A program made the position numbers and the translations under genes. From NCBI GenBank assembly GCA_016288305.1, contig JAEEYW010000071.1, positions 1 to 39,369 on the forward strand: DNA of 39,369 nt, given 5' to 3'. This document shows, one piece after another, positions 2,612 through 37,153 of the stretch. This DNA is from Caryophanales bacterium (lineage in GTDB: Bacteria; Bacillota_I; Bacilli_A; RF39; UBA660). Position 1 is the stretch's first letter. Every line of letters starts with the position of its first letter. The notes under the pieces were generated by a model that was given only the letters and a program-made list of their open reading frames with translations, did not search any database and was not told the origin of the DNA.

Positions 2612-3484
2612 TTATTCTTTTACATTTAATATTTCTAAAATACGATTCAAATCATTGATATTATTGAATGATATTTCAACTTTTCTATCCTTTACAACTA
2701 CTTTAGTATCTAATTTATCACGTAGTAAATCTTCAACATATTTGTAGTCTTTATTTACTTCTTTAACCCTTTTGATTTGAACTTTTCTTTCCTCTTGATG
2801 TGTTATATCTTCAACATCACGGACAGGTAGTTTTTCTTCTACAATTTTATGAGCATACGCTATTATCTTTTCATCATCCTCAAGTTTACTTAAAACTCTC
2901 GCATGACCCATTGATAAGTCGCCATTGATAATCATTTTTTGAACTTCTGTAGGTAATCTTAATAAACCTAACATATTTGTAACATGACTTCTACTTTTAC
3001 TTACTTTAGCACTCAATTCATCTTGTGTTAAAGACAATTTTTCAATCATTGATTTATAAGCTAAAGCTTCTTCGATAGCATTTAAGTTTTCTCTTTGTAA
3101 ATTTTCTAATAATGCTATCTCAATCATTTGTTGTTCAGTGAAATCTCTAATGATAGCTGGAATAGTTGTTAATCCGGCTAGTTTTGAAGCACGATATCTT
3201 CTTTCACCTGCAACAATTTCATAACCCTTAATGCTTCTTTTAACAATAATAGGTTGAAATACACCGTTTTGTTTAATAGAATCAGCTAAATCTTGTAAAG
3301 CCTCCTCTTTAAATATTCTTCGTGGTTGATGTGGATTTGGTCTTAATTCATCCAAATTTATCTCAACTATTTCTTCATTTGAAGTATTCTCATATATTTG
3401 TTTTTCAAAATTTTCAAAATCTAAATTTTCACTATTAAATAATTGTTCTAGTCCTCTACCTAGAGCTCTTTTTTTAGTTTCCAT
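2612..3484 (-). CDS. parB: chromosome partitioning protein ParB (Spo0J)
   Basis: CTP-dependent DNA clamp that loads at parS sites and recruits condensin near the origin. 290 residues. The N-terminal RALGRGLEQLF peptide is the typical ParA-stimulating tail. The ParB/Srx fold follows with GERRYR at about 93-98 (CTP pocket). The helix-turn-helix SKSRSHVTN and the G of GHAR carry the R...G residues typical of parS readers. A C-terminal dimerisation region ends the protein. I chose the ATG at 3484 because AGAGGTG is ten bases upstream; the TTG at 3493 is too close to it. It overlaps parA by eleven bases, suggesting translational coupling. A paralogue (Noc) is at 24869-26758. Confidence 0.95.
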   Translation of the reverse strand: METKKRALGRGLEQLFNSENLDFENFEKQIYENTSNEEIVEINLDELRPNPHQPRRIFKEEALQDLADSIKQNGVFQPIIVKRSIKGYEIVAGERRYRASKLAGLTTIPAIIRDFTEQQMIEIALLENLQRENLNAIEEALAYKSMIEKLSLTQDELSAKVSKSRSHVTNMLGLLRLPTEVQKMIINGDLSMGHARVLSKLEDDEKIIAYAHKIVEEKLPVRDVEDITHQEERKVQIKRVKEVNKDYKYVEDLLRDKLDTKVVVKDRKVEISFNNINDLNRILEILNVKE

Positions 3485-4259
3485 TATGATCAATCACCTC
3501 TTTAGCTAAATTTAAATAAGCTATAGTACCTCTATTTTTAGGATCATAAGCTAATATTGGTTTGCCATGACTTGGTGCCTCTGATAGTTTTATTAATCTT
3601 GGAATAATTGTGTCATATACTTTTTCTTTGAAATAAGACTTAATTTCTTCTACTACTTCTAATCCTAGTATTGTTCTAGAATCTAACATTGTAAGTAATA
3701 CACCCTCAATATCCAATGATGGATTTAAGTCTTTTTGTGTCAACAAAATTGAATGTAGTAATTGTGTTATACCTTCTAGAGCAAAGAACTCACATTGAAC
3801 TGGAATAATTACTGAATTAGCAGCAGCCAAAGCATTAGTTGTAAGTATTCCTAATGAAGGTGGACAATCAATGATAATAAAATCATATTCTTGTTTAGCC
3901 ACATCTAAGTATTTTTTTAATTGGCCTGATTTATTAAAATTATGATCGACTCTACTTCTTTCCATAAGTTCAATATCCGCACCTGCTAAATTAATAGAAG
4001 CAGGAATGATATGTAAATTCTTAAATTTTGTTTTGATTATTACTTCATTTAAATTAGCTCTATCTGTTAACAAATCATAAATGCTTTTCTCATGTGAACT
4101 TTTACTTATACCTACACCAGTTGTACTGTTTCCTTGGCTATCCAAATCAACCAATAATACTTTTTTACCTAATACACCTAATGAAGCAGATAAATTGATA
4201 CTTGTAGTTGTTTTACCAACGCCACCCTTTTGATTAACTAAGGCAATTACTTTACCCAT
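3474..4259 (-). CDS. parA: chromosome partitioning ATPase ParA (Soj)
   Basis: Deviant-Walker ATPase that binds non-specific DNA when ATP-loaded, works with ParB in origin positioning, and in Bacillota also controls DnaA. 261 residues. KGGVGKTT at residues 11-18 is the deviant Walker A; VDLDSQGNST and IIIDCPPSLG are the A' and B motifs. The length is that of a standalone chromosomal Soj without a DNA-binding extension. It leads the parA-parB-DUF951-transporter unit. The ribosome site (GGTGAT) is weak. An extended -10 lies at 4286-4294. Confidence 0.96.
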   Translation of the reverse strand: MGKVIALVNQKGGVGKTTTSINLSASLGVLGKKVLLVDLDSQGNSTTGVGISKSSHEKSIYDLLTDRANLNEVIIKTKFKNLHIIPASINLAGADIELMERSRVDHNFNKSGQLKKYLDVAKQEYDFIIIDCPPSLGILTTNALAAANSVIIPVQCEFFALEGITQLLHSILLTQKDLNPSLDIEGVLLTMLDSRTILGLEVVEEIKSYFKEKVYDTIIPRLIKLSEAPSHGKPILAYDPKNRGTIAYLNLAKEVIDHNGN

Positions 4260-4343: not shown

Positions 4344-4445
4344 CTACTCTATATTTACGCCCATTCCAGCTAGTTCATCTTTAAATATAATACATGCAAA
4401 AATACTTTTTCTTAAATTATAGCTATCAGCATGTATGCTATGACC
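4344..4445 (-). pseudogene. unidentified coding remnant fused to the oldest ORF6N fragment
   Basis: Downstream of the ORF6N fragment, and in a different frame from it, the minus strand stays open for about 34 codons. It reads like a real protein tail (contains GHSIHADSYNLRKS and ends ELAGMGVNIE) before a TAG at 4344-4346. I do not recognise the family. It is probably the C-terminal end of another gene joined to the ORF6N fragment by a deletion. Confidence 0.35.
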
Positions 4446-4527
4446 TAGCCAAATTACTATCCAGCATTACCTGTTTACCTCTTATCTCATATATTTTATT
4501 CTTTATGTAATCTATTACTTCTATCAT
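4438..4527 (-). pseudogene. N-terminal remnant of an ORF6N gene
   Basis: From the ATG at 4527 the minus strand encodes 29 residues, starting MIEVIDYIKNKIYEIRG. This is nearly identical to the first 26 residues of the neighbouring ORF6N copy, including its AGGAGGTGAT ribosome site, and then hits TAG. It is a truncated fourth copy in the array. Confidence 0.8.
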
Positions 4528-4745
4528 TAAATCACCTCCTACTAACTCTATTCGCCAACACATGTAATTTCCTTATAAGATAATTAAAAATCCGAAATCT
4601 CACTAATACACTTAACAAGTACATTAATCACATCTATATCATTAATTAAATTAACACTAAATGTTTTATAACCTATTCTATTGATGCTTCTTCTGCTACT
4701 TCGGTATGAAGAACCGAAGAAAGCATAGCTACACCTTGTTCTGTA
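4445..4745. repeat. direct repeat, unit 1 (offset 475)
   Basis: Nearly identical to 4920-5220 at a constant offset of 475 bases. It spans the start region of one ORF6N copy, the intergenic DNA and the C-terminal remnant plus end of the next copy. Most sites match by eye across the first 270 bases. Confidence 0.85.
4584..4672 (-). pseudogene. out-of-frame C-terminal remnant of ORF6N copy 1
   Basis: Immediately after the stop of the truncated copy, a shifted frame reads INRIGYKTFSVNLINDIDV and on to ISEISDF, then TAA at 4584-4586. The intact gene ends with the same stretch (CGTSINRIGYKTFSVNLI). It is the leftover tail of a once full-length gene. Confidence 0.85.
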
Positions 4746-5002
4746 AATACATACGGTAATTCTCTGGCCATATTTAGACTTTTTGTGGTTTCAATTTGAA
4801 ACCGCAAATGATTAAGTTCATCGTCAGTTAATTGAAAATAAAAATCATTAGGAAACCTATCAATATTTCTTCTAACAGCTAAATTAACTGATTTGGTTCC
4901 ATTTTTACAATGATAAAGTCTAGCCAAATCACTATCCAGCATTACCCGTTTACCTCTTATCTCATATATTTTATTCTTTATGTCATCTATTACTTCTATC
5001 AT
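4673..5002 (-). CDS. truncated ORF6N-domain protein, copy 1
   Basis: 109 residues comprising only an ORF6N DNA-binding domain: DIKNKIYEIRGKRVMLDSDLARLY, a KRFP-like core (NIDRFPNDFYFQLT), a variable segment LRFQIETT, and VFTEQGVAMLSS. The start at 5002 is fixed by AGGAGGTGAT; the longer frame to 5038 has no ribosome site. The protein stops at ...EEASIE, and the remainder of the ancestral gene follows out of frame. The stop arises because a deletion joined TCAATA in one frame to ATCAATA in another. ORF6N domains occur in phage and mobile-element regulators. Whether this short product is made is unknown. Confidence 0.75.
   Translation of the reverse strand: MIEVIDDIKNKIYEIRGKRVMLDSDLARLYHCKNGTKSVNLAVRRNIDRFPNDFYFQLTDDELNHLRFQIETTKSLNMARELPYVFTEQGVAMLSSVLHTEVAEEASIE
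4782..4808. repeat. inverted repeat inside ORF6N copy 1
   Basis: Arms of 13 bases (4782-4794 and 4796-4808) with one mismatch around a single central base; the inner eight pairs, GGTTTCAA and TTGAAACC, are perfect. It encodes the LRFQIETT segment on the minus strand. Confidence 0.9.
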
Positions 5003-5220
5003 TAAATCACCTCCTACTAACTCTATTTGCCAAAACATGTAATTTCCTTATAAGATAATTAAAAATCCGAAATCTCACTAATACACTTAACAAGTACACT
5101 AATCACATCTATATCATTAATTAAATTAACACTAAATGTTTTATAACCTATTCTATTGATGCTTCTTCTGCTACTTCGGTATGAAGAATGGATGAAAGCA
5201 TAGCTACGCCTTCTTCTGTA
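4920..5220. repeat. direct repeat, unit 2 (offset 475)
   Basis: Second member of the pair with 4445-4745. It carries the start of copy 1 and the tail and end of copy 2. Confidence 0.85.
5059..5147 (-). pseudogene. out-of-frame C-terminal remnant of ORF6N copy 2
   Basis: Same arrangement as after copy 1: after the premature stop a shifted frame reads SINRIGYKTFSVNLINDIDV to ISEISDF and ends at 5059. The deletion junction is identical to that of copy 1. Confidence 0.85.
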
Positions 5221-5480
5221 AAAGCATGTGGTAAATATTTGATGTTTTGCCCTCTTTTTACATTCAAGGTTCCAGTTTGGAACCTTGAACACTCCACACT
5301 TGTTAATTCAAAATAAAAGTCATCAGGAAATCTATTAATGTTTCTTTTAACAGCCTTATTAATATCTTTGGTACCATTTTTACAATAATAAAGTTTAGCT
5401 AAATCAAAATCTAACATTACCTGTTTTCCTCTAATTTCATATATCTTATTTTTTATGTCATCTTCAATTATTTCAATCAT
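5148..5480 (-). CDS. truncated ORF6N-domain protein, copy 2
   Basis: 110 residues containing one ORF6N domain: DIKNKIYEIRGKQVMLDFDLAKLY, NINRFPDDFYFELT, the variable SRFQTGTL, then KYLPHAFTEEGVAMLSS. GGAGGTGA precedes the ATG at 5480. It lies 10 bases after the intact copy and ends at the same EEASIE stop as copy 1, so the truncation happened before the duplication. The middle of the domain differs sharply from the other copies while both flanks are conserved. Confidence 0.75.
   Translation of the reverse strand: MIEIIEDDIKNKIYEIRGKQVMLDFDLAKLYYCKNGTKDINKAVKRNINRFPDDFYFELTSVECSRFQTGTLNVKRGQNIKYLPHAFTEEGVAMLSSILHTEVAEEASIE
5263..5289. repeat. inverted repeat inside ORF6N copy 2
   Basis: Perfect 12-base arms, TTCAAGGTTCCA (5263-5274) and TGGAACCTTGAA (5278-5289), around three central bases. 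It encodes SRFQTGTL on the minus strand. Confidence 0.95.
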
Positions 5481-24849: not shown

Positions 24850-24877
24850 TAAAAAAAACAAGTAATTATTACTTGTT
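24850..24877 (-). terminator. intrinsic terminator of noc
   Basis: Ten-base arms (24857-24866 and 24868-24877) include the noc stop codon and are followed by eight T on the minus strand. Confidence 0.85.
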
Positions 24878-26758
24878 AATTTTAATTACTACTTGGTATT
24901 CATTACCTAAATCTACTTCATTTACATCAACTGTGAATCCCATGTTTTGTAAATTTGTTTCACAATTACGAACAACATCGATTGCCATTCTAATATTTGG
25001 TGTCATTGATGCATCTACAGTTGGAACATTTTCTTCAAACGCTGGTATTTCTACAGGTTGATTATCCATTAAAGGAATTGTATTTTGTTCACCGCTATCT
25101 TCAGTTGTTTCTTCTTTCTTTTTACCAAATAATCCAAATAAACCATGATGTCCTTCAGGTGCTGGTTCTGCAAGTGGTGCATCATTTGCTGGTACATCAA
25201 AGTTGAACTCTGGCATTACTGGTTCTACACTTGGTGCATCTGTTGTTGGAATGTCGAAGTTGAATTCTGGCATTGATGGTTCTGCACTTGGTGCATCGGT
25301 TGTTGGTACATCGAAGTTGAACTCTGGCATTGCTGCTTCTACACTTGGTGTTTCAGTTGCTGGTACATCGAAGTTGAACTCTGGCATTGCTGGTTCTACA
25401 CTTGGCGCATCAGTTGTTGGTACATCGAAGTTGAATTCTGGCATTGCTGGTTCTACACTTGGTGTTTCATTTGCTGGTACATCAAAATTGAACTCTGGCA
25501 TTGCTGGTTCTGCAAGTGGTGCATCATTTGCTGGTACATCAAAGTTGAACTCTGGCATTACTGGTTCTGCGCTTGGTGTTTCAGCTGTTGGTACATCAAA
25601 ATTGAATTCTGGCATTGCTGGTTCTGCAAGTGGCGCATCATTTGCTGGTACATCAAAATTGAATTCTGGCATTACTGGTTCTACACTTGGTGTTTCAGTT
25701 GCTGGTACATCAAAATTGAATTCTGGCATTACTGGTTCTACACTTGGTGCATCAGTTGCTGGTACATCAAAATTGAATTCTGGCATTACTGGTTCTACAC
25801 TTGGTATATCAAAATTTGTAGTACCAAATTGCATTGTTTTTTGTGAATCTGAGTCACTATCATCAGCTGATGGTGTTTCTACACTTGGTGTTTCTGTTGC
25901 TGGTACACCAAAATTGAATTCTGGCATTACTGGTTCTTGTTTATTTTCGGCATTTCCAGTTTCTGTATTTCCAGCTAAAAATTGATCCAATAGTGAATTA
26001 TCTTCAAACATATTGAAAAAATTACCAGGTTGGTCACCATCTGCTGGTTTAGCAGATGATTCAAGATTATCTATATTCATGAATCCTGTAAAGTTATTTT
26101 CTGTTGCATTAGCTTCAGGAACATTTACGATTCCACCATTATTTCCTTCTTCTTTAAACATTTTTTCAATCTCCTCATCTGTTTTACGAACAGTTAATCT
26201 TTCATTAATGATTCTATTTAACATCATTACTTGTTGCTTTTCATCTTTAATTTTTAATAATGATCTAGCATGTCTTTCAGAAATCTTAGTTTCTAACAAA
26301 GCTTCTTGGACTTCCTCAGCTAAATTTAATAGACGTAAAGTATTGGCAATAGATGATTGTGATTTACCAATTTTTTGCGCTAAATCTTCTTGGTTAATAT
26401 AACCCATATCCAAGATTTTCTTATATGAAACAGCTTTTTCAATAGGCGTTAAATCCTCTCTTTGAACATTTTCCAATAAAGCTATTTCGACGCTATCTTT
26501 ATCACTTAAATCATAAATAATAGCTGGTATTGTTTCTTTACCTGCTATAACGCTAGCTTTATAACGACGTTCACCTGCTATAATTTCATACTTATCGCCT
26601 ATTTGTCTTACAACAATTGGTTGAATAACTCCGTATTTTCTTATAGATGCGGCTAACTCATTTATTGACTCCTCGTCAAATTTGATACGTGGTTGGAATC
26701 TATTAGGTAAAACATCACCTAAATTTAGTTCAACAACTTTCTTTTCATTGTTTTGCAC
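24869..26758 (-). CDS. noc: Noc (ParB paralogue) with long repetitive linker
   Basis: 629 residues, about twice the usual 280-290. Residues 10-95 form the ParB N-domain with the CTP-pocket GERRYK at 62-67; about 100-200 is the DNA-binding domain with helix-turn-helix GKSQSSIANTLRLL. Residues 319-527 are eleven 19-residue repeats built on MPEFNFDVP, followed by LFGLFGKKK at 540-548 and a C-terminal domain (about 580-629) ending YQVVIKINK. Position next to rsmG-mnmG-mnmE is the classical noc locus; Noc couples nucleoid position to division. The N-terminal amphipathic membrane helix of Bacillus Noc is missing. The start is GTG at 26758, eight bases after AAAGGGG. Confidence 0.9.
   Translation of the reverse strand: MQNNEKKVVELNLGDVLPNRFQPRIKFDEESINELAASIRKYGVIQPIVVRQIGDKYEIIAGERRYKASVIAGKETIPAIIYDLSDKDSVEIALLENVQREDLTPIEKAVSYKKILDMGYINQEDLAQKIGKSQSSIANTLRLLNLAEEVQEALLETKISERHARSLLKIKDEKQQVMMLNRIINERLTVRKTDEEIEKMFKEEGNNGGIVNVPEANATENNFTGFMNIDNLESSAKPADGDQPGNFFNMFEDNSLLDQFLAGNTETGNAENKQEPVMPEFNFGVPATETPSVETPSADDSDSDSQKTMQFGTTNFDIPSVEPVMPEFNFDVPATDAPSVEPVMPEFNFDVPATETPSVEPVMPEFNFDVPANDAPLAEPAMPEFNFDVPTAETPSAEPVMPEFNFDVPANDAPLAEPAMPEFNFDVPANETPSVEPAMPEFNFDVPTTDAPSVEPAMPEFNFDVPATETPSVEAAMPEFNFDVPTTDAPSAEPSMPEFNFDIPTTDAPSVEPVMPEFNFDVPANDAPLAEPAPEGHHGLFGLFGKKKEETTEDSGEQNTIPLMDNQPVEIPAFEENVPTVDASMTPNIRMAIDVVRNCETNLQNMGFTVDVNEVDLGNEYQVVIKINK
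25178..25804. repeat. eleven tandem 57-bp repeats within noc
   Basis: Eleven copies at an exact 57-base period (each carries TGGCAT, from 25211 to 25781), encoding variants of PSVEPVMPEFNFDVPATDA. A twelfth, degenerate copy lies 141 bases further at about 25922. Copies alternate ...DA and ...ET for the first eight protein repeats, a 114-base higher-order pattern. Confidence 0.97.
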
Positions 26759-26840: not shown

Positions 26841-26867
26841 TAAAAAATACCAATTTACATTGGTATT
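26841..26867 (-). terminator. intrinsic terminator of rsmG
   Basis: AATACCAA (26846-26853) and TTGGTATT (26860-26867) form an eight-pair stem, followed on the minus strand by six T. Confidence 0.85.
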
Positions 26868-27570
26868 ACAAAGGCTTTTTCTTAATATCACTATATTTCC
26901 TAGGAAATAATTTAGACGTTTCTTTAATTTTTTTAACCTTAATTAATGTCCTTTTGCTTTCCTCAATCGGTAAATTGAAACACTCAATTTGTTCCAACAT
27001 ACTATCAAGTTTTTGCAATGCTTTATCGCTATTTTTTATTTCATCTTCAGCATTGGCTTTCATAGCAATAAAATATCCATTAGTTTTAACAAGTGGCACA
27101 GAATATTCAATTAGATGATTAAGAGGCGCTACAGCACGAGCTGTAACAACATCAAATAATTCTCTATTATTAATTCCATATTCTTCAGCACGCGCAGAAA
27201 TTGTTTCAATTTTATCTAGGTGTAATTGTTCAATAACGTAGTTTAGAAACTGTATACGCTTATTTAATGAATCAATCAAAGTTACTTTCAATTCTGGAAA
27301 CATAATTTTAATTACTAAACCTGGAAATCCAGCTCCTGTACCTATATCACATAAGGTACTTACAGTATTTAAATCGATTACTTTGCATAACGTTAAACTG
27401 TCATAAAAATGTTTTAAATAAACATCATTTTGCTCAGTTATGCCTGTTAGATTCATTTTTTCGTTCCACTCAACTAAAAGTTTATAATATTGATTTAATT
27501 GTTCAAGTTGTAATTCAGTAATACTGATACCTAATTTATTTAATTCATCAATAAATTTATTTTGATTCAT
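26866..27570 (-). CDS. rsmG: 16S rRNA (guanine527-N7)-methyltransferase RsmG
   Basis: SAM-dependent methyltransferase of the 530 loop of 16S rRNA. 234 residues, standard length. The SAM-binding motif CDIGTGAGFPGLVIKI, WNEKMNLTGI near the N terminus and VTARAVAPL are present. Its start overlaps mnmG by 14 bases, the conserved mnmE-mnmG-rsmG order, and it ends at a terminator before noc. Confidence 0.97.
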   Translation of the reverse strand: MNQNKFIDELNKLGISITELQLEQLNQYYKLLVEWNEKMNLTGITEQNDVYLKHFYDSLTLCKVIDLNTVSTLCDIGTGAGFPGLVIKIMFPELKVTLIDSLNKRIQFLNYVIEQLHLDKIETISARAEEYGINNRELFDVVTARAVAPLNHLIEYSVPLVKTNGYFIAMKANAEDEIKNSDKALQKLDSMLEQIECFNLPIEESKRTLIKVKKIKETSKLFPRKYSDIKKKPL

Positions 27571-33930: not shown

Positions 33931-35295
33931 ATGGATATAAATAACATATGGAAATCTTTTTTGGAAAAAATGCAAGATTCATTAACTCCTGTATTATATG
34001 ATATGTGGTTTTCTGAAACGAAACTTATTGAATTAAATCAGGAATTTGCTAAAGTACTGGTTCCTATGCCACTTCATAAAAAACATCTTAAAGAAAACTA
34101 TATTGAATTAATAGAAAAAACATTTTCTGATGTAACTGGTTCTATTTTTAAATTTGAATTTGTTACTGAAGATGATTTAAATGATGATAATATAATAGAT
34201 ATTGATGAAATAGGTGTTCCGGGAAATGCTATATTTCAGTCTAATTTAGATCCTAAATATACTTTTGAAAGTTTTATTCCTGGTACAAGTAATAAATTTG
34301 CTAAAGCGGCAGCACTTGCTGTTGCTGAACAACCTGGTAGTATGTATAACCCATTATTTATATATGGAAAAAGTGGGTTAGGTAAGACACATTTAATGCA
34401 TGCTATTGGTAATTATATTAAAGATAATAGTCGTAAAAAAGTACTATATGTTACGACTGATACTTTCGTTAATGACTTTTTAAAAATATACCGTAAAAAT
34501 GAAAGTGACACTAATTTTGAAACAATTGACGATTTTAAAAATAAATATCGTAATGTTGATGTATTAATGATTGATGATATACAATACTTAGAAATAGCTC
34601 AAAAGACACAACAAGAATTCTTTAATACATTTAATGATTTATATACAAACAATAAACAAATAATAATTGCATCAGATAGATCACCTGATGATTTAAAAAA
34701 ACTTGAGGAAAGATTAAGAACTAGATTTGTCTGGGGATTAATTGTTGATATCTTACCACCAGATTATCAATTGCGTATGGATATTATTGATAAAAAAATT
34801 GATTCTAACAATCTAAACACTTTTTTTCCACAGGATGTAAAAGAATATATTGCTAATAATTGTACTACTGATATAAGGAAACTTGAAGGTGCAATTACAA
34901 GAATTATTGCTTATTCCACAATAATGAATGGTTCTGATATAACTTTAGACTTAGCGATGGATGCTTTAAAGGATTATATAGGTGTAAAATTAATAGCTAA
35001 AAACAAAATTGAACAAGTTCAAAATGTGATAGCTAATAACTATAATATAAAGGCTGAAGACTTGCGAAGTAAGAAAAAATCAAATGATATAGCCATTCCA
35101 AGACAAATAGGTATGTATATTTGTAGGGTATACTTAAAAGAATCTTTACCTAAAATTGGAGCTGAATTTGGTGGTAAAGATCATACCACAGTTATGCATG
35201 CTGTTAACAAAATAAAAGCTGAAATTGAAAAAAATGATCAATTAAGTGTAGAAATTAATAAAATCATTAAACAATTACCGTGGATAAATCAATAA
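33931..35295 (+). CDS. dnaA: chromosomal replication initiator DnaA
   Basis: AAA+ initiator that binds DnaA boxes and opens oriC. 454 residues. Domain I is residues 1-80; domain II is very short (about 81-108); domain III has Walker A GKSGLGKTH at 146-154 and LMIDDIQYL; domain IV has the signature GGKDHTTVMHAVNKI. AGGGTGAT precedes the ATG at 33931. Boxes upstream suggest autoregulation, and one more lies downstream before dnaN. Confidence 0.98.
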   Translation: MDINNIWKSFLEKMQDSLTPVLYDMWFSETKLIELNQEFAKVLVPMPLHKKHLKENYIELIEKTFSDVTGSIFKFEFVTEDDLNDDNIIDIDEIGVPGNAIFQSNLDPKYTFESFIPGTSNKFAKAAALAVAEQPGSMYNPLFIYGKSGLGKTHLMHAIGNYIKDNSRKKVLYVTTDTFVNDFLKIYRKNESDTNFETIDDFKNKYRNVDVLMIDDIQYLEIAQKTQQEFFNTFNDLYTNNKQIIIASDRSPDDLKKLEERLRTRFVWGLIVDILPPDYQLRMDIIDKKIDSNNLNTFFPQDVKEYIANNCTTDIRKLEGAITRIIAYSTIMNGSDITLDLAMDALKDYIGVKLIAKNKIEQVQNVIANNYNIKAEDLRSKKKSNDIAIPRQIGMYICRVYLKESLPKIGAEFGGKDHTTVMHAVNKIKAEIEKNDQLSVEINKIIKQLPWINQ

Positions 35296-36536: not shown

Positions 36537-36550
36537 TTAAGATAAAAATG

Positions 36551-36589
36551 AAGAAAAAAGTAAAAAAAATTAACTTTTTTCTTTTTTTT
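36551..36589 (+). terminator. intrinsic terminator of dnaN
   Basis: AAGAAAAAAGT (36551-36561) and ACTTTTTTCTT (36573-36583) form an eleven-pair, A-U-rich stem followed by T. Confidence 0.7.
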
Positions 36590-36613
36590 GACAAATTTCG
36601 ACATTTTTCGACA
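36586..36613 (+). promoter_or_regulatory. three 10-bp phased TTTYGACA repeats upstream of the comK-like gene
   Basis: TTTTGACA at 36586, TTTCGACA at 36596 and TTTCGACA at 36606, exactly one helical turn apart. The first contains a consensus TTGACA -35; an extended -10-like TGTGGTATAAG lies at 36621-36631. Confidence 0.55.
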
Positions 36614-36673
36614 ATAAACTTGTGGTATAAGAGTATCCGTCGAATTAATTTTCGTCTAGGGGGAGGTGTTTTG

Positions 36674-37138
36674 ATGATTGATGAATACTATATAAATGAA
36701 GATACTCTTTTATTAGTTCCAGTCAGCAAAGAAAAAACAAAAATATACGATATAAATGGAACATTTTACATTAAGAAAAATTGTTTTGAATTGGTAGATG
36801 AAAGTTGTCAATACTATGGAAGCAGTTACGGTGGTAGATATTTAGGTGCTAAAAAAATGTTAGACATGGAATATAAATTACCTATAATAGCAGATGAAGT
36901 AAAAGAAGTAATCATGGTTCCAACATGTTCACCACGTCAACAAAGTTGCATTTGGATGTGTTTAAATAATATTGAAAATTATATAAAATTTAAAAATATT
37001 TCAAAGGTAAAATTCACAAATGGACTTAATTATGATTTAACGATTTCATATCCTTCGTTAGAAAATCAAATTTTGCGTGGAACATTATTATTAACAAGGT
37101 TAAAAAATAGAAAAAATAACCCTAAAAAAATAGCAAAA
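36674..37138 (+). CDS. ComK-family competence transcription factor
   Basis: 155 residues matching ComK: EDTLLLVPVSKEKTKIYDING, the core ESCQYYGSSYGGRYLGAKKML, PTCSPRQQSCIWMCLNNIENY, and a final FTNGLNYDLTISYPSLENQ. ComK activates DNA-uptake genes by binding paired AT-boxes. The ATG at 36674 is set by GGGAGGTG; the frame upstream to 36548 runs over the dnaN terminator and is not coding. It occupies the place where many Bacillota have the S4-domain gene yaaA. Stop codon TAG ends at 37141. Confidence 0.82.
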
Positions 37139-37153
37139 TAGCTATTTTTTTTA
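37124..37153 (+). terminator. intrinsic terminator of the comK-like gene
   Basis: AAAAAATAGC (37125-37134) and GCTATTTTTT (37141-37150) surround a six-base loop; the T run continues to 37152. Confidence 0.8.

Follow-up and report, generated by a model that had tools for sequence, protein, structure and literature searches.

A Noc orthologue with a long acidic, repeat-bearing linker and predicted binding sites close to the origin in a Caryophanales bacterium (UBA660) and its relatives

Noc descends from a duplicated ParB, which raises the question of how a clamp of the centromere turned into a regulator of division across the whole chromosome. In Bacillus subtilis, Noc can neither bind the membrane nor function without an N-terminal helix and its residues F5, F8 and F9 (PMC4331003), the protein binds a wide region (PMC5540599) and it shows CTP-dependent self-assembly on membranes (Babl et al. 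2022, PMC9606368). Staphylococcus aureus Noc occupies 41 loci spread across ±700 kb and restrains DnaA-dependent initiation (PMC5540599). Specificity for DNA depends on few residues: Q173 and R201 (Caulobacter ParB numbering) switch it from parS to the Noc site (NBS), whilst QTAR and QTAG variants, which have neither of the permissive lysines 179 and 184, are non-functional (PMC7383237). LGxGL is the ParA-binding motif (PMC12704722). In the literature searched we found no report of a repeat-bearing Noc or of origin-only NBS, nor of a long linker in S. aureus Noc.

The window, that is the whole stretch of DNA analysed here, is contig JAEEYW010000071.1 (39,369 nt; assembly GCA_016288305.1) of a Caryophanales bacterium (UBA660), an uncultured gut bacterium whose own genome (G000) is a draft of 73 contigs totalling 1.02 Mb. 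It was compared with the genomes of its family, all of which appear to be metagenome-derived draft assemblies, and with a set of 128 distinct family Noc proteins (119 complete) drawn from whole genomes and named loci. The phylum sample consisted of members of the same class only; the contrast with scattered NBS elsewhere is taken from the literature. Features of the locus are collected in Table 1.

Table 1. Coordinates of noc, its domains and linker elements, and neighbouring features of the window.
Feature	Position	Strand	Remarks
noc, 629 aa, GTG start	24869..26758	-	ParB_N + HTH_ParB; directly downstream of rsmG
ParB_N / CTPase domain, residues 7-99, GERR + ENxQR motifs conserved	26462..26740	-	
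HTH DNA-binding domain, residues 101-200; Q134 + R162 present; residue 140 = T	26159..26458	-	
Disordered acidic linker, ~residues 208-587 (382 residues)	24998..26137	-	mostly pLDDT < 50
GFMNID, conserved linker motif A, residues 225-230	26069..26086	-	
GNFFNMF, aromatic linker motif B, residues 245-251	26006..26026	-	candidate membrane/partner motif
Detached degenerate twelfth unit MPEFNFGVPATETPSVETP (MPEFNFGVP), residues 278-296	25871..25927	-	
Tandem array, 11 MPEFNFDVP units, residues 325-533	25160..25805	-	TRF
GLFGLFGKKKEE, membrane-helix-like stretch past array, residues 539-550	25109..25144	-	putative
C-terminal dimerisation domain, helix-strand-strand, residues 588-629	24872..24997	-	pLDDT > 90
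Predicted Noc site ATTTCCTAGGAAAT, 3' end of rsmG	26895..26908	.	137 bp upstream of noc start
rsmG	26866..27570	-	
soj-parB, canonical ParAB pair; ParB has LGRGL	2612..4259	-	
dnaA, origin-region marker	33931..35295	+	

The 629-aa protein is a true Noc orthologue, as the original prediction had it: domains, fold, structure matches and DNA-specificity residues all agree. In B. subtilis, too, rsmG adjoins noc. By sequence the nearest solved structures are those of Noc (7ng0, 7nfu, 7ol9), which come before Spo0J and ParB, and Noc structures likewise match the AlphaFold model first. With the Noc of B. subtilis and Geobacillus (7ol9, 7nfu, 7ng0, 6y93) it has in common the ParB_N CTPase fold, the HTH and the residues Q173/R201, and their NBS palindrome ATTTCCCGGGAAAT also occurs in the window genome. 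The best NCBIfam model is nucleoid_noc, at 276 bits, which is below its cut-off of 315; its best stretch reaches no further than the N-terminal 198 of the 255 positions, and therefore the linker probably breaks the match. Beyond the linker, the C-terminal domain is homologous to the C-termini of canonical Nocs from other families of the class. The CTPase-motif residues E63 R64 R65 and E96 N97 Q99 R100 are invariant; the window Noc may form CTP-dependent clamps. The chromosomal ParB (Spo0J)/parS system shares this clamp fold and has origin-clustered sites, many NBS lying beside parS. However, the 629-aa protein lacks LGxGL, carries the Noc specificity residues and is accompanied by a separate canonical parB adjoining soj (2612-3493).

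At the two switch positions the window has Q and R, as do 126/128 and 127/128 of the family proteins, respectively. The permissive lysine at 179 or 184 is absent; T and N stand there in all 16 sequences of the window's genus, whereas K179 is found in 110/112 family proteins outside it. Given that QTAR and QTAG variants do not function, NBS binding is not assured in this genus. The window codon for position 179 (residue 140) is at 26339-26341.

What sets the protein apart is its middle. The original prediction of an acidic linker between the clamp and the C-terminal domain is supported: the linker has a net charge of -70, contains 15% Pro and is predicted to be disordered (mostly pLDDT < 50). 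Moreover, such linkers are a property of the family, measuring 57-557 residues in all 119 complete Nocs (median 240) and always acidic (net charge -9 to -78), whilst elsewhere in the class most families have Nocs of ~255-290 aa in total. The ~380 residues with tandem repeats seen in the window likewise differ from the short linker of B. subtilis and Geobacillus Noc. A long acidic linker could be relevant to self-assembly of the kind described for Noc condensates (PMC9606368), although the B. subtilis protein has a short linker and an N-terminal helix, unlike the window Noc. Two short motifs recur in the family linkers. Motif A (GFMDID-like) is present in 40 of 128 linkers as against 3.2 in shuffles, and motif B ([KRN]FFx[FLMYVI]; GKFFNFF elsewhere) in 59 of 128 as against 2.4 in shuffles, with a maximum of 7. 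Both lie N-terminal of the array in the window linker. The GLFGLFGKKKEE stretch past the array has no similar stretch at the same place in congeners.

Within the window linker TRF reports a single array with a period of 57 bp, 11.3 copies, 86% match, 0% indels and a score of 893, in agreement with the eleven 57-bp units without indels that had been predicted; residues 319-527, given earlier, are the same array in another phase. MPEFNF starts 11 units, the first at residue 325 and the last at 515. The near identity claimed for the units was somewhat overstated, as they show ~86% similarity and vary at many positions of the spacer. These differences fall unevenly, with pN/pS of 0.02 in the kernel MPEFNFDVP as against 2.0 in the spacer of the window array (4 synonymous and 1 nonsynonymous changes in the kernel, 4 and 9 in the spacer). 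The contrast was picked post hoc and has an event-level Fisher p of 0.12, and is thus only suggestive of constraint on the short kernel. The proposal that FNF is a repeated binding motif fares accordingly: the kernel is protected within the window array, with the same post hoc p of 0.12, but FNF is not common to the congeners, which share at most a loose [FYMI][DE]xP kernel, several of them without F. FNF was therefore rejected as a conserved family motif. Two other candidates were set aside. A 260-aa frame is open antisense to the array (window 25203-25985, + strand), but is a by-product of the repeat period, since 57 bp is divisible by three. A structure match of residues 266-524 to the nucleoporin Nsp1 reflects low-complexity repeat similarity, not homology.

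We next turn to the window's genus. Arrays are present in 12 of the 13 congeners whose contig reaches far enough, at ~nt 930-1050 of the gene; in the thirteenth (L012) the array is weak, and three further congener contigs stop before or at the array start. Units are 15, 16, 17, 18, 19 or 20 residues long and all in frame, and both unit sequence and copy number differ in every species, bearing out the fast turnover foreseen from the window. However, the expansion is not recent in the window species alone, as had been suggested, given that congeners carry arrays at the same position and the long linker is family-wide. MPEFNFDVP is therefore the form that a fast-turning-over array takes in a single species. 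Unrelated arrays occur in a few other genera of the family.

These comparisons bear on two alternatives. The window copy number might be wrong through misassembly: 9/16 congener contigs end inside noc (expected ~0.2 per genome, P ~0.002), showing that short-read assemblies fail at this gene and that draft copy numbers need caution, and the window genome is itself a 73-contig draft. Nevertheless we consider an artefact improbable, since the window units differ from one another, which helps assembly, the frame is open, conserved sequence flanks the array on both sides and congeners have independent arrays. The second alternative is that the repeats are neutral passengers, the linker tolerating in-frame tandem duplication on which nothing depends. 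The change of unit sequence, period and copy number in every congener would fit this, as would a pN/pS of ~1 or above in many congener arrays and the several family linkers of < 100 residues. Against it, every array of the genus retains its reading frame, acidity and proline content, the array has the same position throughout, and the window kernel shows its low pN/pS (post hoc); on balance we rate neutrality as somewhat unlikely. In our view the array is most readily understood as a spacer, acidic and rich in proline, that is rapidly replaced and in which a short kernel is under some constraint.

A bridge from DNA to membrane, with linker length setting the distance, had also been proposed, and this is doubtful. 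None of the 128 family proteins has an N-terminal amphipathic membrane helix, only 14-23 residues preceding PNRFQPR, whereas the helix is present in B. subtilis and Geobacillus Noc and required in B. subtilis; the Nocs of several relatives in the class, but outside the family, open with MGLFDFLG, MFNIFS or MNIFSG. Moreover, what lies across the linker from the clamp is the dimerisation domain and not an N-terminal membrane anchor. A substitute might lie in the linker itself. The hydrophobic residues of KFFNFF are spaced i, i+3, i+4, as are F5/F8/F9 of B. subtilis Noc. The hydrophobic moment of the aromatic motif is only moderately high (15% exceed the 95th percentile) and gives no support to a classical strong amphipathic helix. 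Only because of the Phe spacing do we retain the hypothesis that the aromatic motif is a candidate replacement for the N-terminal membrane anchor. In another family, one genome (G087:C1:111464-150345) encodes a Noc of 681 aa, whose long C-terminal extension finishes in GFWNLFK, and has an NBS cluster near noc.

Lastly, we searched for the sites to which such a protein might bind. The pattern ATTTCCNNGGAAAT gave 3 matches in the window's own genome as against 0 for the reversed control, and predicted NBS were found in 56/58 family genomes, with 1-9 sites in all of these but one. The exception (G039) has 22, mostly in tandem arrays; thirteen palindromes stand in tandem with a ~79-bp period at G039:C1:89140-90102, and more copies lie on contigs C53 and C68. 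The perfect palindrome is present in 16 of 18 family genomes versus 7 of 131 other genomes of the class. Positions of dnaA, parS and NBS were mapped in 12 genera with long contigs. Here 36 of 37 predicted NBS are no more than 27.8 kb away from dnaA, at a median distance of 10 kb, the remaining site (G031) being unplaced, and half of those placed (18/36) have a parS no further than 100 bp off. Sites usually stand just past gyrA, and they flank dnaA on one or both sides. The broad chromosomal spread expected of Noc was thus not seen in these 12 genera. S. aureus Noc (PMC5540599) likewise has an origin-side site bias, the core NBS and a possible link to replication control, but its 41 loci are spread, as against few predicted sites at most 28 kb from dnaA in the window's family. 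Confinement to the origin also distinguishes the predicted sites from those of B. subtilis and Geobacillus Noc.

In two genomes the association with parS takes the form of composite modules with shared flanking sequence: in one, each of eight parS has an NBS 45-47 bp further on (G031:C25:40782-42655), and in the other three parS are followed by an NBS at 36 bp (G030:C6:755-1374). Such modules may have arisen by local duplication, and NBS within one genome are therefore not independent, yet all 12 genera show the pattern. Of the predicted NBS of the window's own genome, one is at 26895 of the window. Contig C31 has two, and since gyrB, gyrA and three parS are found at its end it very probably joins the window's gyrB end. 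A fourth, unplaced predicted site with one mismatch is on contig C13. Class relatives with a canonical Noc have few NBS by the same pattern. These are dispersed in two genomes (G081 and G083), and another (G127) has one NBS on each of five contigs. Given the few NBS in some class members and their clustering in G087, the pattern may in part extend beyond the family.

Some predicted sites are embedded in coding sequence. The rsmG site is common to 7 congeners and overlaps the codons for the conserved FPRK of RsmG, where Arg is written with AGG, an uncommon codon (6% of Arg). ISREI of RsmI reads ATT TCC CGG GAA ATA in four genera, the window's among them, which forms an NBS; across ten window genes TCC makes up 3.2% of Ser codons and CGG 0/188 of Arg codons. 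Both sites look as though they are maintained as DNA. The rsmI site is at G000:C31:20248-20261 and is found at the same place in G047, G053 and G103.

A Noc that has its predicted sites confined to the origin, lacks the N-terminal anchor and bears a very long tether is a variant in its own right. As a joint reading of these data, we propose that Noc would load at the handful of predicted NBS beside oriC and parS and would slide on DNA as a CTP-dependent clamp of the ParB type. There it would carry a disordered tether, long and acidic, joining the DNA clamp to the dimerisation domain; the aromatic motif of this tether (GNFFNMF; GKFFNFF elsewhere) would most likely dock to the membrane or to an origin partner, so that the complex might tether or mark the origin. 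In the window's genus the mid-tether array expands, contracts and is replaced quickly and would thus serve mainly as an elastic charged spacer, whose short hydrophobic-acidic-x-proline kernel may be under some constraint. We regard the chances of this reading, an origin-bound clamp with a docking tether and a repeat spacer, as evenly balanced.

This reading must be weighed against ordinary nucleoid occlusion, by which Noc would bridge DNA to the membrane and linker length would tune its reach. Origin-only sites would suffice for this in small cells with a 1 Mb chromosome, and in both B. subtilis and S. aureus Noc blocks division close to DNA on the origin side (PMC4331003, PMC5540599). Moreover, the MinC C-terminal domain was not found in 37/37 family genomes by a search whose control finds B. 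subtilis and E. coli MinC; another division-site regulator would therefore be useful, leaving room for a division role. GNFFNMF and GLFGLFGKKKEE are candidate membrane-like stretches in the linker. However, the membrane helix on which B. subtilis Noc depends is absent, and known Noc binds many loci widely, whereas most genomes here have 1-9 sites within 28 kb. Taken together, we judge nucleoid occlusion unlikely.

Alternatively, origin-bound Noc could control replication initiation through DnaA or origin structure, its linker recruiting or sequestering replication proteins. Restraint of DnaA-dependent initiation by S. aureus Noc (PMC5540599) offers a precedent, and the predicted sites do flank dnaA. 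Most of them, however, stand not at oriC itself but 8-20 kb from dnaA and next to parS, and segregation therefore fits better than origin firing; control of initiation seems to us quite improbable.

An origin-bound clamp leads to a broader and more tentative proposal, which we place a little below even chances: that throughout this family of uncultured gut Bacilli Noc is a second centromere clamp and not a chromosome-wide occlusion factor, loading near or among parS, spreading beside ParB and tethering the origin by a linker motif that replaces the helix. If this were true, the family would show the path from ParB to Noc either at an intermediate stage or in reverse. It would make the transition from centromere clamp to division regulator directly testable, since Noc here would still, or again, sit at the centromere and some members have parS-NBS modules of constant spacing. 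Furthermore, the natural linker variants of 57-557 residues offer a test of the role of a tether between clamp and dimerisation domain in ParB-type clamps.

Two further features of the window were noted. A tandem duplication (4445-5463; 475-bp period, 2.1 copies) adjoins soj-parB and overlaps small ORFs, which we take to resemble ORF6N-type DNA-binding proteins. A ComK homologue (36548-37141; Pfam E 2e-34) lies between dnaN and recF.
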